Of a DNA stretch of 64,000 bases, positions 39,274 to 44,985 are shown in pieces. Position 1 is the stretch's first letter. Each line of letters begins with the position of its first letter. The notes beneath the pieces were generated by a model. The model was not told the DNA's origin. It made no database searches and worked only from the letters and a program-made list of their open reading frames with translations. The position numbers were made by a program, and so were the translations under genes. Origin of the DNA: Corallococcus coralloides DSM 2259 (lineage in GTDB: Bacteria; Myxococcota; Myxococcia; Myxococcales; Myxococcaceae); contig NC_017030.1 in the NCBI RefSeq assembly GCF_000255295.1, positions 8,964,328 through 9,028,327 on the forward strand, in the 5' to 3' direction.

Positions 39274-39897
39274 ATGAGCGCACCCATCGTCGTCCACATC
39301 TGGTCCGACTTCGTTTGACCCTGGTGTTACGTCGGCCTCGGTGAGGTCGAGAAGCTGAAGAAGGAATACGACGTCCAGGTGGAGTGGCACCCCTACTTCC
39401 TGCGCCCGGAGACGCCTCCGGAAGGGCTGCCGTTGCCCGAGTACGTGCGCCAGGGGATGAAGGACCCCAACAATCCGCTGAAGCTCCGCGCCGCGAAGGC
39501 CGGGCTGACGATGGTGCAGCGGGACATCATCCCGTCCACGCGCCGTGCGCATGAGGCGGCGGAGTACGCGCACGCCCAGGGCAGGCTGGAGCCCTTCCAG
39601 GCCGCCATCCTGCGGCGCTACTGGAGTGAAGGTCAGGACCTCTGGCAGTGGGACACGCTGCGGGCCGCGGGCGTGGAGGCCGGATTGGATCCGGACGAGC
39701 TCCAGCGCGCGGTGGAGGAAGGGCGCTACCGGCAGGTGGTGGAGGAGTCCGTGCGCGAGGCCCAGGAGATGGGCATCCGCGCGGTGCCCACCTTCATCCT
39801 GGGTGACCGGCTGGCCATCCAGGGCGCGCACGAGTACCCGTCATTCCAGCGGGCCATGCAGCAGCTGGGCGCGAAGCCGAAGAATCAGCAGGGCTGA
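39274..39897 (+). CDS. FrnE/DsbA-like oxidoreductase, probable selenoprotein (TGA = Sec at codon 15)
   Basis: A 207-residue thioredoxin-fold protein, full length for FrnE-like DsbA proteins, if codon 15 (TGA, 39316-39318) is read through. The start is MSAPIVVHIWSDFV, then TGA, then PWCYVGLGEVEKL. FrnE homologues have CPWC at exactly this place, so TGA replaces the first active-site Cys, as in UxxC selenoproteins. Downstream are YFLRPETPPEG, the helical insert, and the cis-Pro segment GIRAVPTFILGDRLAIQGAH. A SECIS-like hairpin starts 14 bases after TGA. Without read-through a gene finder would start late (GTG 39379) and lose the active site. The alternative is a recent nonsense mutation of a Cys codon or an assembly error. 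No sel genes are in the window. Confidence 0.8.
39332..39350 (+). promoter_or_regulatory. Bacterial SECIS-like hairpin
   Basis: An 8-base-pair stem, TCGGCCTC (39332-39339) with GAGGTCGA (39343-39350), one G-U pair, caps a GGU triloop. The loop begins 22 bases after the TGA. This fits the bacterial SECIS model: apical loop 16-37 bases from UGA, with G in its first two positions. A lower stem, CCTGG (39320-39324) with CCAGG (39375-39379), is also possible. Confidence 0.7.
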
Positions 39898-39903
39898 CGG
39901 GAG

Positions 39904-41157
39904 CTACAGGCCCTTCACCAGGATGAGCAGCCGCGCGAAGGTCTCCGGACCTTCGCCGGCCAGCCCCCTGGCGAAGTCCAGGAACGTGGGCGCCTGCTCC
40001 ACGTGCTTGGCGACGATCTGGAACGCCTCCACGGCGGCGGCGTCCAGCGCGGCCACGGGCGCTCCGGGAGCCTCCAGCAGCGCCACCACGGCCGGATGCC
40101 CGAGCAGCACCCAGCGCACCACGGAGGCGCGCAGCACGAGCAGGAACACGGCGTTCAGGAGGCTCTCTGCCTCGGTGAACGGGTGGCGCAGGACGTGGTT
40201 GAGCGCGTGGTGCAGGAAGTACTGGTGCACGCGCTCGCCGTGCAGGGACTCCAGGGTGGAGCGCCGGGCTGCGTGGAGTTCCCACGCCTGGTCTGGAGGC
40301 GTGTCCACGCCGCCGTAGGACGCGCGCACGGCGTTCATGAGCGACAGGAAGCGCGGGCTGCTCACGGCGGCTTCGCGTGAACGGAGCACGGCGCCGCAGA
40401 TGCCGGCCCACGGGCCTCCGGGCAGCTCCAGCGCTTCGAGCTGCGCGCTCAAGGACGCGAGGGTGTCCGGCGAATCGTACTCGCGCAGGATGCGCGCGAG
40501 CCGATCTGCATCCGCTGAAGCGAACGCCGTCGTCCCCGGGAAGTAGAAGTCGCCCAGGTCCAGCGCCATGCGGCCCAGCGCGTACAGCCTCGCGGCGAAC
40601 GGGGCTTCGCGGCGATTCAAGAGCCGCAGCATCGCTTCGCGCACGGTGTCCGCGTGGGCCGTCCACGCGTCGTCTCCCGCCGCCACCTGCCGCGCGACCT
40701 GGGGACGCAGGGCGTGTTCCTCGGGCACGTGCTCGCGCACCAGCGCGTCCTCCGCCAGCAGGCACAGGCGCGCCGTCTCCGGACACGCGAGCGACCCGGC
40801 CATCTCCACCTGCGTGCCCCAGCGCGTGAGCACTCGCGGGAAGACGGAGCAGCCGTCCGGCAGCACCGCTTCGCCGTAGAGGCGCTGGAGCGAGCACAGC
40901 TTCGCTTCATCCAGGAAGGCGCAGTGCCCATCCGCGCGCTTGCCCAGGATGCCCGCCTGCTGGCCCGTGGCGCCGTCCGGGTTCGGCGAAATCAGCGCCG
41001 CGACGCGCGCCTCGTCCGGTGTGCCCGCCACCTTCTGGCGCAGCAGGCTCCAGCGCGACTCGCTGATGGGCACCGTCAGCCCCGCGCAGCAGGTGTCCTC
41101 GCACGCCTCCGCGATGCAACGGAAGCGCGCCATGTAGCGGGGGGCGGAGGCCGTCAT
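39904..41157 (-). CDS. FliB-like (lysine N-methylase family) Cys-cluster protein
   Basis: A 417-residue protein. The N-terminus has the Cys cluster typical of the FliB/YkgJ group: FRCIAEACEDTCCAGLTVPIS, then GHCAFLDEAKLCSLQRLYGEAVLPDGCSVFPR and SLACPETARLCL. This matches my memory of flagellin lysine N-methylase FliB and its many homologues. The rest is helical. Myxobacteria of this type glide and have no flagella, so the target is unlikely to be flagellin. ATG 41157 gives MTASAPRYMARFRC, the usual start. It converges with the selenoprotein candidate (6-base gap) and lies 9 bases after the PilZ-Hsp70 stop's far side on the same strand. Confidence 0.75.
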   Translation of the reverse strand: MTASAPRYMARFRCIAEACEDTCCAGLTVPISESRWSLLRQKVAGTPDEARVAALISPNPDGATGQQAGILGKRADGHCAFLDEAKLCSLQRLYGEAVLPDGCSVFPRVLTRWGTQVEMAGSLACPETARLCLLAEDALVREHVPEEHALRPQVARQVAAGDDAWTAHADTVREAMLRLLNRREAPFAARLYALGRMALDLGDFYFPGTTAFASADADRLARILREYDSPDTLASLSAQLEALELPGGPWAGICGAVLRSREAAVSSPRFLSLMNAVRASYGGVDTPPDQAWELHAARRSTLESLHGERVHQYFLHHALNHVLRHPFTEAESLLNAVFLLVLRASVVRWVLLGHPAVVALLEAPGAPVAALDAAAVEAFQIVAKHVEQAPTFLDFARGLAGEGPETFARLLILVKGL

Positions 41158-41166
41158 CGCGCCAGT

Positions 41167-44100
41167 CTACTTGCGGCCCAGCGCCTTCTTCACGAACCCC
41201 CAGAAGCGGCCCGCGCGATCCTTGAGGTCCGCGCCCCGGCGCTCCTCGGCGGCGCTCACCGCCTCCTTGCTCACCTGGAGCTGCTTCTGGAGCTCCTCCG
41301 GCGAGTAGCGCGTGGCGAGCGTCGCCTTCACTTCCTTGCGCGTCGAGTACTCACGCGCCTCCACGTGCAGCACGCATTCGGAGTCCAGCTTGAGCGTCAC
41401 CGCCACGCGCACGGAGCCCTTGGGGCCGCGTGGCAGACCTTCCATGCGCACGGTGCCCAGGTACTCGTTGGCGGAGATGTGGTTGTCCTCGCCCTGGAAG
41501 ACGGACAGCTCCATCCGCTCCTCGTTGTCCTGGGACGTGCTGATGGCGAACGAGCGCTGCGTGGGCAGCGGGCTGTTGCGCTCGATGACGCGCTTGAAGC
41601 CGCCGCCGGGCATGGCCACGCCAATGGTCATGGGCAGCACGTCGATGAGCACCACGCTGCTCACCTTGTCCACCGAGCCCGAGTACAGCGCCGCGCCCAG
41701 CGCCACGGCCTCGTCCGCGTTGACGCTCGCCTGCGCGTTCTTGCCGAACAGGCCCTTGAGCTTGTCGCGCACCAGCGGCATGCGGCTCATGCCGCCCACC
41801 AGGATGATGTCGTCCACCTCCGAGGCCTTCAGCTTGGAGTCCAGGAGCACGTCGCGCACCACGTCGACGGTGCGGTTGAGCAGCGGGTCGCAGATCTTCT
41901 CCAGGTCCTGGCGCGACATCGTCACGCGCAGGTCCCGGGGACGGCCCGCGTCGTCCATCATCAACATGGGGATGTGGACTTCGAACGTGCTTCGCTCGGA
42001 CAGCGCCATCTTCGCGCGCTCGGCGGCGTCGCCCACGCGCGACAGGGCGATGCCGTCCCCGTTGAACGCGATGCCTTCCTTCTCCTGGAAGCGCTCCAGC
42101 AGGAAGTCGACGATGAGGTTGTCGAAGTCGATACCGCCCAGGAAGATGTCGCCGCCGGTGCCCAGCACCTCGAAGACGTTCTTCTCGATGCGCAGGATGG
42201 TCGCGTCGAAGGTGCCGCCGCCCAGGTCGTAGACGAGCACCTTCTTGTTGAGCTCGCGGTTGAGGCCGTACGCGAGCGCCGCGGACGTGGGCTCGTTGAG
42301 GATGCGCTCCACCTTGAGGCCGGCCATCGCGCCCGACTTGCGGACCGCTTCACGCTGGGGCTCGGAGTAGTAGGCCGGCACCGTCACCACGGCGCGCTCC
42401 ACCTTCTGGTTGAGGTGGGCTTCGGCCATTTCCTTGCACTCGCGCAGGATGATGCCCTGCACCTCTTCCAGCGACAGCACGTCGTTGCCCAGGCGCACGG
42501 CGGCGCGGCCGGCGGCGTCGGGGGTGATTTCGTAGTGGAAGCGCTCGCGCACCTGCTTCACCACGGCGCTGTCGTAGGGACGGCCCACCAGGCGCTTCGC
42601 GCCGTAGATGGTGTGCGTGGGCCGCAGCACGAGCTGGTTCTTCGCGCGGTGGCTGACGAGCAGCTTGTTCTGCGCGCTCAGCGAGATGACGGACGGGATG
42701 GTGTTGTAGCCCTCGCGCGAGCGCAGCACGACGGGCCGGCCGTTGGACAGGAGCGCCACGCAGGAGTTGGTGGTGCCCAGGTCGATGCCGATGACCGGCC
42801 CCGTGCCGGCCAGCGTCTGCGGCGGCGTGAGGTAGATGGGGCGCACCTGGCCGTTGGCGTCCAGGGGAGGCGGCGCGGAGGCCACCGGCGCGGCGGCGGG
42901 CGCGAGCGTCGCGGGGGCGCTCGGCGCGGCGGGCGCGGGCGGGGCCTGGCGCACGGACGGAGGCAGCACGCTCGGCGGCGGAGGGGCCACGGGCCTCGCG
43001 GCGGGACGGCCCGCGGAGGACACGGGCTCGCGCGCGAGTTCCAGCGGCCCGTCGTCGTCGATGGACAGGTCCAGGTCGAACTCGGCGCTGCCGCCGGACG
43101 GGCGCTGCGGCGCGGGAGGCTGCTGGGGGACGGCGCGGCCCCAGGACGACGCAGGCTCCTGGGAGAGGTCGGGAGCGCGGCCCGCGGCGGAACCGGGCTC
43201 GCGGCCCAGGCCGGGCGCCGCGGGACGGTTGGCGAAGGAGCCGGGCTCCAACGGCAGCTCACCCGGAGCGCGCGCCGAGGGACGTCCCGCCACGGATCCA
43301 GGCTCGCGGCCCAGGCCGGGCGCGGCGGCACGGCCTGCCGCGGATCCAGGCTCCAACCCCAGACCCGGCACGGAGGGACGTCCGGCGGCGGATCCGGGCT
43401 CACGTCCCAGGCCCGGCGCGGCGGTACGCCCGCCAGAGGAGAGCGGCTCGAGTCCCAGGCCCGGCGCGGAGGGACGACCTCCCGACGAGCGAGGCTCCAG
43501 TCCCAGGCCCGGCGCCGCGGGACGACCTCCAGAAGAACGGGGCTCGAGTCCCAGGCCCGGCACTGCGGCACGGCCGGCGGCGGATCCAGGCTCCAGTCCC
43601 AGGCCCGGCGCCGCGGGGCGACCTCCAGAAGAGCGCGGTTCAAGCCCCAGGCCCGGCACTGAGGCACGGCCGGCGGCGGATCCAGGCTCACGCCCCAGCC
43701 CCGGGGCACGACCCGCCGCGGATCCGGGTTCACGTCCCAGACCCGGCGCGGCGGCGCGACCCGGCGAGGACGCGGGCTCACGCCCCAACGGCCGCTGACG
43801 GCCCGGCGAGGACGCGGGTTCGCGCGCCAGCTCCAGCGGGGCGTCATCGTCCAGGGACGACAGGTCGAAGTCGAACTCGGCGCTGCCTCCAGAAGGCTTG
43901 GCGGGAGCCACCGGCGGCACGACCGGCATCGCGGCGGGCGGAGGCGGAGGGGCCGCGCGCTGCACGGGCGCGGGAGGCACCGGCGCGGCGCGAGGCGGCG
44001 GCGCGGGGGCGACATCCGAGAAATCCAGCTCGAACCCACCCGCGTCGCCCGCGTCCGAAGCCGCGTCGTCCTCCACGGAGAGCCCCACTTCGATGGGCAC

Positions 44101-44985
44101 CTCCTCCAGCGGCTGGCCCATGGCGATGGGCTCATCCATGGCCGGAGCCTCGAACTCGAAGTCGAGCCCCGGCAGCGGCTCGTCGCCTCCCGACAGCACG
44201 CCCTGCACGGTGGGCGGAGGCGTTCCCGCGATGAGCTCGTCCAGCGGGATGTCCACGTCGTTCGAGGAGTCCGCCTGCGCCAGCCCCATGTCCTCGTCCG
44301 GAGCGCCCAACGAGAACGGCTCGTCCGCGCCGCCCGGCGAGAACGGCTCGTCCGTCGCGGGCGCGGGGGCGGACGGCGCATCCAGGTCGTCGAACAGTGA
44401 ATCGAGCGCGACGCCGCCCGCGGCCGGTTGCGCGGAACGCGCGGGCGCGGCGGGAGGTGCGACGGCGGTGGGACGCGCGGGGGCGGCGGCGGGCCGGGGC
44501 GCGGCCACGGGCGGACGCACCGGCGCGGTCAACGGCGCGATGCCCGGCGCGCTCAACGGTGCGATGCCTGGCGTGGCCAACGGCGCGATGCCCGGCGCCA
44601 CGACCGGAGCAATGGACGGCAGCGGCGCGGCGGCCGGCACGGCACCGCCACCCGGCTTGCGCTGGAGCATCAGGTCCACGAGCGCGCGGCTCGCGGTATC
44701 CAGCTCCTGGAACTGCAACCCCATGCCCGGAGGCCCCGCGGGGTCGTTCACATCGCGCACCCAGCGCACGGTGGCGGTGCCCTGGAGCACACGCACGCCG
44801 TTGGCGATCTGCACATCGAAGCGCACGGGCGTGCCCACCGGCTGCGGCGTGCGCGAGCGGATGAACATGCCCCCGGGGCTGATGTTGGTGGCGAACTCCT
44901 CGGTGAAGCTCCCCACAGTCTCATGCTTGAGCTTCACCAACAGACCGACCGACTTGCGGTCCGAGGTACGCCGACCTTGATCCAT
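41167..44985 (-). CDS. PilZ-Hsp70 (DnaK-like) fusion protein with long repeat linker
   Basis: A 1272-residue protein. PilZ domain at about residues 3-110 (RRTSDRKSVGLLVKLKH, FATNISPGGMFIRS, GTPVRFDVQIANG, GMGLQFQEL), possibly binding c-di-GMP, although the usual RxxxR lead reads RRTSDRK. A linker of about 620 residues is rich in Pro/Ala/Gly and contains about 15 copies of a roughly 16-residue unit. The DnaK-like part runs from about 729 to 1250: GIDLGTTNSCVALL, VPAYYSEPQREAVRKSG, VYDLGGGTFDATIL, LVGGMSRMP, then a substrate-binding beta domain (VLPMTIGVAMPGGGFKRVIERNSPLPT). The C-terminal lid is very short. Myxococcus SglK is a DnaK homologue needed for social motility; a link is conceivable but not shown. 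Confidence 0.88.
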   Translation of the reverse strand: MDQGRRTSDRKSVGLLVKLKHETVGSFTEEFATNISPGGMFIRSRTPQPVGTPVRFDVQIANGVRVLQGTATVRWVRDVNDPAGPPGMGLQFQELDTASRALVDLMLQRKPGGGAVPAAAPLPSIAPVVAPGIAPLATPGIAPLSAPGIAPLTAPVRPPVAAPRPAAAPARPTAVAPPAAPARSAQPAAGGVALDSLFDDLDAPSAPAPATDEPFSPGGADEPFSLGAPDEDMGLAQADSSNDVDIPLDELIAGTPPPTVQGVLSGGDEPLPGLDFEFEAPAMDEPIAMGQPLEEVPIEVGLSVEDDAASDAGDAGGFELDFSDVAPAPPPRAAPVPPAPVQRAAPPPPPAAMPVVPPVAPAKPSGGSAEFDFDLSSLDDDAPLELAREPASSPGRQRPLGREPASSPGRAAAPGLGREPGSAAGRAPGLGREPGSAAGRASVPGLGLEPRSSGGRPAAPGLGLEPGSAAGRAAVPGLGLEPRSSGGRPAAPGLGLEPRSSGGRPSAPGLGLEPLSSGGRTAAPGLGREPGSAAGRPSVPGLGLEPGSAAGRAAAPGLGREPGSVAGRPSARAPGELPLEPGSFANRPAAPGLGREPGSAAGRAPDLSQEPASSWGRAVPQQPPAPQRPSGGSAEFDLDLSIDDDGPLELAREPVSSAGRPAARPVAPPPPSVLPPSVRQAPPAPAAPSAPATLAPAAAPVASAPPPLDANGQVRPIYLTPPQTLAGTGPVIGIDLGTTNSCVALLSNGRPVVLRSREGYNTIPSVISLSAQNKLLVSHRAKNQLVLRPTHTIYGAKRLVGRPYDSAVVKQVRERFHYEITPDAAGRAAVRLGNDVLSLEEVQGIILRECKEMAEAHLNQKVERAVVTVPAYYSEPQREAVRKSGAMAGLKVERILNEPTSAALAYGLNRELNKKVLVYDLGGGTFDATILRIEKNVFEVLGTGGDIFLGGIDFDNLIVDFLLERFQEKEGIAFNGDGIALSRVGDAAERAKMALSERSTFEVHIPMLMMDDAGRPRDLRVTMSRQDLEKICDPLLNRTVDVVRDVLLDSKLKASEVDDIILVGGMSRMPLVRDKLKGLFGKNAQASVNADEAVALGAALYSGSVDKVSSVVLIDVLPMTIGVAMPGGGFKRVIERNSPLPTQRSFAISTSQDNEERMELSVFQGEDNHISANEYLGTVRMEGLPRGPKGSVRVAVTLKLDSECVLHVEAREYSTRKEVKATLATRYSPEELQKQLQVSKEAVSAAEERRGADLKDRAGRFWGFVKKALGRK
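43130..43830 (-). repeat. Degenerate 48-base tandem repeats inside the PilZ-Hsp70 gene
   Basis: About 15 imperfect copies of a unit encoding GLGLEPRSSGGRPAAP or variants (GLGREPGSAAGRASVP and so on), in frame throughout. The flanks also carry two copies of a larger block, SAEFD(F/L)DLS...DDD.PLELAREP, so the linker grew by duplication at two scales. Copy number is likely to vary between strains. Confidence 0.8.

Follow-up and report, generated by a model that had tools for sequence, protein, structure and literature searches.

An in-frame UGA probably read as selenocysteine in the active site of a FrnE/DsbA-like oxidoreductase of Corallococcus coralloides and related myxobacteria

The window analysed here, a stretch of 64,000 nucleotides from the genome of Corallococcus coralloides DSM 2259 (one contig, 10,080,619 bases), carries at 39274-39897 of its forward strand a gene for a FrnE/DsbA-like thiol-disulfide oxidoreductase in which, judging from comparison with its relatives, an internal stop codon almost certainly specifies selenocysteine (Sec) in the thiol-redox active site. 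If the internal TGA is read as Sec, the frame is open for 207 residues and ends at a terminal TGA (MSAPIVVHIWSDFV-U-PWCY...); this internal TGA, at 39316-39318 (+), is codon 15 and aligns with the first Cys of the CPWC motif of the relatives. A first-pass annotation of the window had proposed a probable selenoprotein here, with the TGA replacing the first active-site Cys of an otherwise intact 207-codon gene; frame and alignment agree with this, and the proposal gains from the machinery genes present in the genome, the conservation of the TGA and the covariation of the hairpin among relatives.

Gene, reading frame and active site

The Pfam domain PF01323 (DSBA) spans residues 7-196 of the protein (E 1e-33; 117.2 bits against a gathering cut-off of 25.6). 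The best sequence match among solved structures is FrnE of Deinococcus radiodurans (5cnw, E 3.2e-27), and the AlphaFold model of the protein (pLDDT 95.2) finds its best PDB fold match in the same enzyme (5coh, TMq 0.85 for the predicted model), so that the earlier assignment to a FrnE/DsbA-like protein holds both by sequence and by predicted fold. Cys18 (TGT codon at 39325-39327, +), the putative resolving Cys of the UPWC site, is the sole Cys besides Sec15 and is invariant in an alignment of 40 protein sequences (L185 omitted), as is Pro172 (39787-39789, +), which lies in a VPTF stretch forming a putative cis-Pro loop opposite the active site, a role known for the thioredoxin fold. In an NCBIfam scan of the protein and four relatives, no model scored above its own cut-off; the top match of the window protein, NF041057, is the thioredoxin-like Rcas_1661 (seleno)lipoprotein family, and membership was rejected, the score being 44 bits where 190 are required and the match covering residues 90-197 only. 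The Rcas_1661 family is classed as DsbG-like in the available text of PMC13188914.

A mechanical reading under translation table 11 gives, in the same frame, a shortened ORF of 172 aa that starts at GTG 39379 (39379-39897, +) and loses the active site, as had been anticipated for a standard gene finder, which would start late; such a reading shortens these proteins and removes their active site. A scan of the window gave 351 TGA codons preceded by no fewer than 8 open codons and followed by no fewer than 60, and five of these combined high GC3 with a partner Cys in a UxxC/CxxU arrangement, protein relatives being looked up, among these five, solely for 39316-39318. On the opposite strand, the adjoining 417-aa ORF (39904-41157, -) has several Cys near its N-terminus and no Pfam match at E 0.001, and a 1272-aa ORF (41167-44985, -) seems, by eye, to join a PilZ-like N-terminus, long Pro/Gly-rich repeats and a DnaK/Hsp70-type domain (GIDLGTTNSCVALLSNG).

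Conservation of the TGA codon

Within the genus, codon 15 is TGA in 12 of 16 genomes and Cys in the other four (G007, G009, G015 and G011, the last counted as Cys although its locus, L024, carries CPWC in a broken frame). Among 96 genomes of the family, 36 carry the UPWC-type gene with TGA and 29 carry it with Cys; in a sister type, with UPFC, the codon is TGA in 7 further genomes (G019, G021, G022, G039, G041, G043 and G044) and Cys in four (G035-G038), and the remaining 20 gave weaker matches only, one of which was fetched (G034) and has Cys. The search of the phylum comprised 195 genomes, these 96 included, and 102 of them matched at E 1e-22; outside the family 24 genomes matched, with TGA at the site of the fetched loci in 21, Cys in 2 (G149, G162) and a match from residue 21 on in G115. 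Named species carrying Sec include C. interemptor, C. exercitus, C. carmarthensis, C. sicarius, C. llansteffanensis, Archangium violaceum, A. lansinium, Pyxidicoccus fallax and P. caerfyrddinensis, and those carrying Cys include C. praedator, C. terminator, Citreicoccus inhibens and Myxococcus xanthus AM003; the search patterns behind the loci of the named species contain the active site in its Cys spelling, so this set is biased towards Cys forms.

The codon-15 column is covered in 192 of 196 homologous loci and holds TGA in 77, TGC in 77, TGT in 38 and no other codon, in a count made without requiring U or C at the site and in which 12 of the 77 TGA loci repeat, as named records, species that are also represented among the genomes. 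A single TGA anywhere inside the match of a relative was rejected as a sign of Sec, the site itself being Cys in G007, G015, G054, G070 and G037. The first-pass annotation had held that a TGA confined to this strain would point to a mutation or an error, and had suggested aligning the homologues: the TGA is common to many relatives, and across the UPWC Sec genes the hairpin is conserved as well.

Sec machinery and a second candidate selenoprotein

The genes whose presence the first-pass annotation had suggested verifying are all found in the window genome, namely tRNA-Sec (selC; 70.5 bits, anticodon TCA), SelB (328.8 bits), SelA (569.1 bits) and SelD (388.3 bits), each above its curated cut-off. 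The same genome has, at G000:C1:9999052-10002057, a formate dehydrogenase alpha subunit gene (L223, L224) with an in-frame TGA within its TIGR01553 match (UHASTVPGL), which is probably its second selenoprotein gene. Formate dehydrogenase is an experimentally verified selenoprotein family with the motif UHxP in the available text of PMC13188914, whereas the gene of the window genome reads UHAS, which counts against the Sec reading.

A tRNA-Sec match of 66 bits or more is present in each of the 43 family genomes with a Sec form (36 UPWC, 7 UPFC/UPYC), and in 42 of them SelB exceeds the cut-off, the exception being G093, which is 85% complete. No tRNA-Sec match above 60 bits was obtained in 9 of the 96 family genomes (G028, G035, G048, G050, G083-G086 and G088); a relative was fetched from three of these (G028, G035, G088) and is Cys in each, and the other six gave weaker matches alone, whose sequences are not included in the count. 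Since G048 and G088 have SelB above the cut-off despite the missing tRNA-Sec match, assembly gaps may contribute to such absences. SelB and tRNA-Sec are also retained in many Cys carriers, for example in those of the Myxococcus/Pyxidicoccus group (g19) and in the Cys clade of Corallococcus.

The SECIS-type hairpin

The candidate bacterial SECIS hairpin (39332-39350, +) has an 8-bp stem (39332-39339/39343-39350; columns 17-24 paired with 28-35, counted from the T of the TGA) closed by a 3-nt GGU loop (39340-39342), with an energy of -10.7 kcal/mol and a TGA-to-loop spacing of 21 nt, and it fits the published bacterial SECIS model by the criteria in the available text of PMC13188914. The first-pass annotation had described it as an 8-bp, GGU-loop hairpin starting 22 bases after the TGA and compatible with SECIS, and it is indeed present, fits the model and covaries among relatives. 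Taken singly, the window hairpin is weak evidence, since the 65-nt stretch folded alone is unremarkable for its composition (matched by 42 of 200 shuffles), and the strict hairpin test is also passed at 1705 of the 20002 start positions in the window. Single-sequence folding was rejected as evidence (z -0.74, not significant), and the case rests instead on conservation and covariation.

In 27 distinct UPWC Sec genes, 97.7% of the cells of the 8-bp stem are paired despite letter changes (GC to AU, CG to UA, CG to AU, and UA to CG or AU). In this set the covariation score is 0.269, against 0.112 +/- 0.016 in shuffled alignments and at most 0.081 in slid ones, and two-sided changes occupy 16 cells, a value equalled in 0 of 500 shuffles; this shuffle control ignores relatedness, and two of the five covariation measures are unstriking (4 two-sided pairs, found in 28 of 500 shuffles, and 6 further pair types, in 328 of 500). 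In the control set of 22 Cys genes (L222 omitted as too distant), these columns are 75.0% paired, with a covariation of 0.122 and slid values of up to 0.139.

A loose loop rule, accepting a G at either of the two leading loop positions, was rejected, as the Cys forms of Corallococcus pass it at -10.7; under it, 3 of 28 distinct Cys genes versus 44 of 46 Sec genes reach -7.5. The strict rule, a G[G/U] loop, is the pattern given for most elements in the available text of PMC13188914 and was adopted after the outcome of the loose rule was known. It is passed in the Myxococcota by 44 of 46 distinct Sec but 1 of 35 distinct Cys sequences (Fisher 2.8e-19, relatedness ignored; the 35 include CSWC/CAWC paralogues, which the 28 of the loose test exclude), and outside the Myxococcota by 1 of 57 Cys sequences. 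Its exceptions are two Sec genes that miss the energy threshold (L202, L206) and one Cys gene that passes (L186). The Corallococcus Cys forms (L021-L023) keep 8/8 stem pairs and the same energy, the loop alone being changed, to GCC, so part of the stem in this genus may be due to coding constraint.

The sister clade of apparent DsbA/FrnE-like selenoproteins, with UPFC or in one case UPYC (L163-L169, L196-L198, L200, L201, L203-L208, L210-L214), has a hairpin of its own, GCAGCCU-GGUC-AGGCUGC, located 32 nt past the TGA and unlike that of the UPWC type. It is 99.2% paired over 19 sequences and nearly invariant, and shows no covariation because the sequence hardly varies. In the Cys members of this type (L170, L186, L187, L199, L217), 4 or 5 of the 7 pairs are formed and the GGUC loop is absent; an alternative hairpin is possible in L186, and passes the strict test.

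Codon context at the site

The first-pass annotation had also regarded the codons around the site, GTT before the TGA and TGT for Cys18, as unusual for this genome and possibly due to RNA constraints. For GTT the observation stands in part: it is rare for Val (33/1514 in 40 heuristically picked window genes), and directly before the TGA (39313-39315 in the window gene) it occurs in 22 of 65 distinct Sec genes versus 0 of 34 Cys genes. Nevertheless, it is not required, since 12 of these 22 genes come from Corallococcus alone and 41 of the 65 Sec genes use GTC; a UGA context effect is possible, and confounded by relatedness. TGT at Cys18 is not Sec-specific, being used in 20/65 Sec and 13/34 Cys genes. 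An RNA constraint on GTT and TGT as a general rule was rejected, most Sec genes using GTC and TGC.

Alternative readings of the UGA

Decoding of the UGA as another residue, such as Trp or Cys, or by near-cognate readthrough without SelB, is most improbable: it would have to accommodate the strict alternation of UGA and Cys at the site and the covariation of the SECIS-type hairpin, in a genome that has tRNA-Sec, SelA, SelB and SelD together. Still less credible is a pseudogene or a sequencing error, in which the TGA, a stop under table 11, would be a nonsense mutation or a fault of one assembly; the identical TGA recurs in dozens of genomes of several genera, Cys is its sole alternative across the 192 loci, and the downstream frame is open, with near relatives leaning towards synonymous differences (L010, for instance, differs synonymously at 15 codons and nonsynonymously at 2), so that conservation has, in our view, already refuted this explanation. 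A start at GTG 39379, from which the ORF is indeed open, with the upstream part as a leader and a shortened protein devoid of the active site, has a practically negligible chance. Against it, full-length Cys homologues match residues 1-14 and U15-PWC with their own N-terminus, each of the 11 other Sec genes of the genus departs from the window gene at 0 to 3 of codons 1-14, and two elements of the predicted model, its first beta strand (residues 5-11) and the helix of the active site (16-31), lie upstream of codon 36.

Switching between Sec and Cys

On a tree of 109 proteins (65 Sec, 44 Cys) built with the trait column masked, 10 changes between Sec and Cys are needed, and at least 6 are forced by starred branches; the tree was obtained by a quick method that gave long-branch warnings. 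It omits the CSWC/CAWC paralogues (L027-L038), L026, the named duplicates (L068-L090), the distant Cys rows (L101-L147), identical proteins and the five loci to which an automatic rule demanding U or C assigned no site (L024, L025, L090, L195, L216). Sec appears in three places, the main UPWC clade, the UPFC clade and a distant UPWC group (L202, L209, L215). For the main clade (73 rows, 39 Sec), rooted with Cys sequences of Chloroflexi, one gain with five losses ties with four gains and two losses, on a quick tree with a simpler model, some branches of which disagree with the 109-protein tree.

Parsimony alone gives this tie; the shared stem and register would favour a single gain of Sec. There is about an even chance that the main UPWC clade began with a single gain of Sec, followed by some five losses to Cys that left vestigial SECIS stems, as in the Cys forms of Corallococcus. 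Close relatives that switched to Cys mostly keep SelB and tRNA-Sec. Detected Sec/Cys reversals are few and mostly restricted to formate dehydrogenase and selenophosphate synthetase, according to the available text of PMC1794560, and one gain followed by five losses, if true, would provide a natural series of Sec-to-Cys reversals beyond these two families. Pairs of close relatives that differ in having Sec or Cys occur inside one genus and in the Myxococcus/Pyxidicoccus group, and offer a ready system for studying the benefit of Sec in a cytoplasmic thiol oxidoreductase, as well as the gain or loss of a SECIS hairpin.

Proposed function and mechanism

The window protein is very likely a cytoplasmic oxidoreductase of the FrnE/DsbA family whose nucleophile would be the Sec of UPWC, inserted under the direction of SelB and the hairpin. 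Following the established SelD/SelA/SelB pathway, SelD would make selenophosphate, SelA would form Sec-tRNA-Sec, and this would be brought to the UGA at 39316-39318 by SelB attached to the hairpin (39332-39350). The selenolate of residue 15 would then attack substrate disulfides, and Cys18 would resolve the mixed selenenylsulfide. A cytoplasmic location is suggested by an N-terminus that, by eye, has no signal-peptide-like stretch.

According to the available text of PMC8945050, FrnE is predicted to be a cytoplasmic thiol oxidoreductase of the DsbA family with a CP(W/F)C motif, and its mutant in D. radiodurans is more sensitive to cadmium and diamide; by analogy with this enzyme, the window protein may reduce or isomerise oxidised proteins under oxidative stress. 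The same text proposes a C-terminal CXXXXC of D. radiodurans FrnE for its regeneration, and adds that many FrnE proteins have this motif but not all. The motif was sought in the window protein and is absent, which does not place it outside the FrnE subfamily, since FrnE proteins without it exist; given this absence, thioredoxin or glutathione might, as a guess, be its reductant.

Comparison with known systems

A literature search, with most subscription papers outside its scope, retrieved no paper combining selenoprotein and Corallococcus, none joining Myxococcales with selenocysteine, Myxococc with SECIS or Myxococcus xanthus with selB, and, judging by title, no selenoprotein paper on bacterial FrnE. 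DsbA-like selenoproteins as such have been described before. COG2761 is, as we take it, the FrnE group. Nine UXXC sequences from the Sargasso Sea were assigned to COG2761 in 2005 (PMC1088965, available text), DsbA 1 of the 2008 GOS survey (pfam01323, UxxC) comprised 63 sequences (PMC2398784, available text), and PF01323 with UxxC is given as a DsbA-like selenoprotein in that of PMC13188914. The window protein shares PF01323 and UxxC with form 1 of 2005 and DsbA 1 of 2008, whose members are marine metagenome sequences, a comparison made by description and not by alignment; the available text on these families makes no mention of Corallococcus. The available text of a 2006 survey reports a DsbA-like selenoprotein in Anaeromyxobacter dehalogenans (PMC1794560), myxobacterial like the window protein, and this may be the UPFC sister type of group g31 (L200, L201, L203-L205, L210), whose proteins are 33-40% identical to the window protein and have a different hairpin. 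In 2016, 45 DsbA-like proteins were counted in 41 organisms (PMC5029168, available text), and its lists may include some of the present genera.

In summary, the kind of protein is already known, and the sequence comparisons point to a clear, conserved case in predatory myxobacteria; new are the members from Corallococcus, Archangium and Pyxidicoccus, the covariation of their hairpin and the apparent repeated switching between Sec and Cys among close relatives. The closest counterpart of solved structure, by both sequence and fold, is FrnE of D. radiodurans (DR_0659; 5cnw, 5coh), a DsbA-family protein like the window protein, from which it differs in that the Deinococcus enzyme has Cys at the active site and a C-terminal CXXXXC, whereas the window protein would have Sec and dispenses with that motif.
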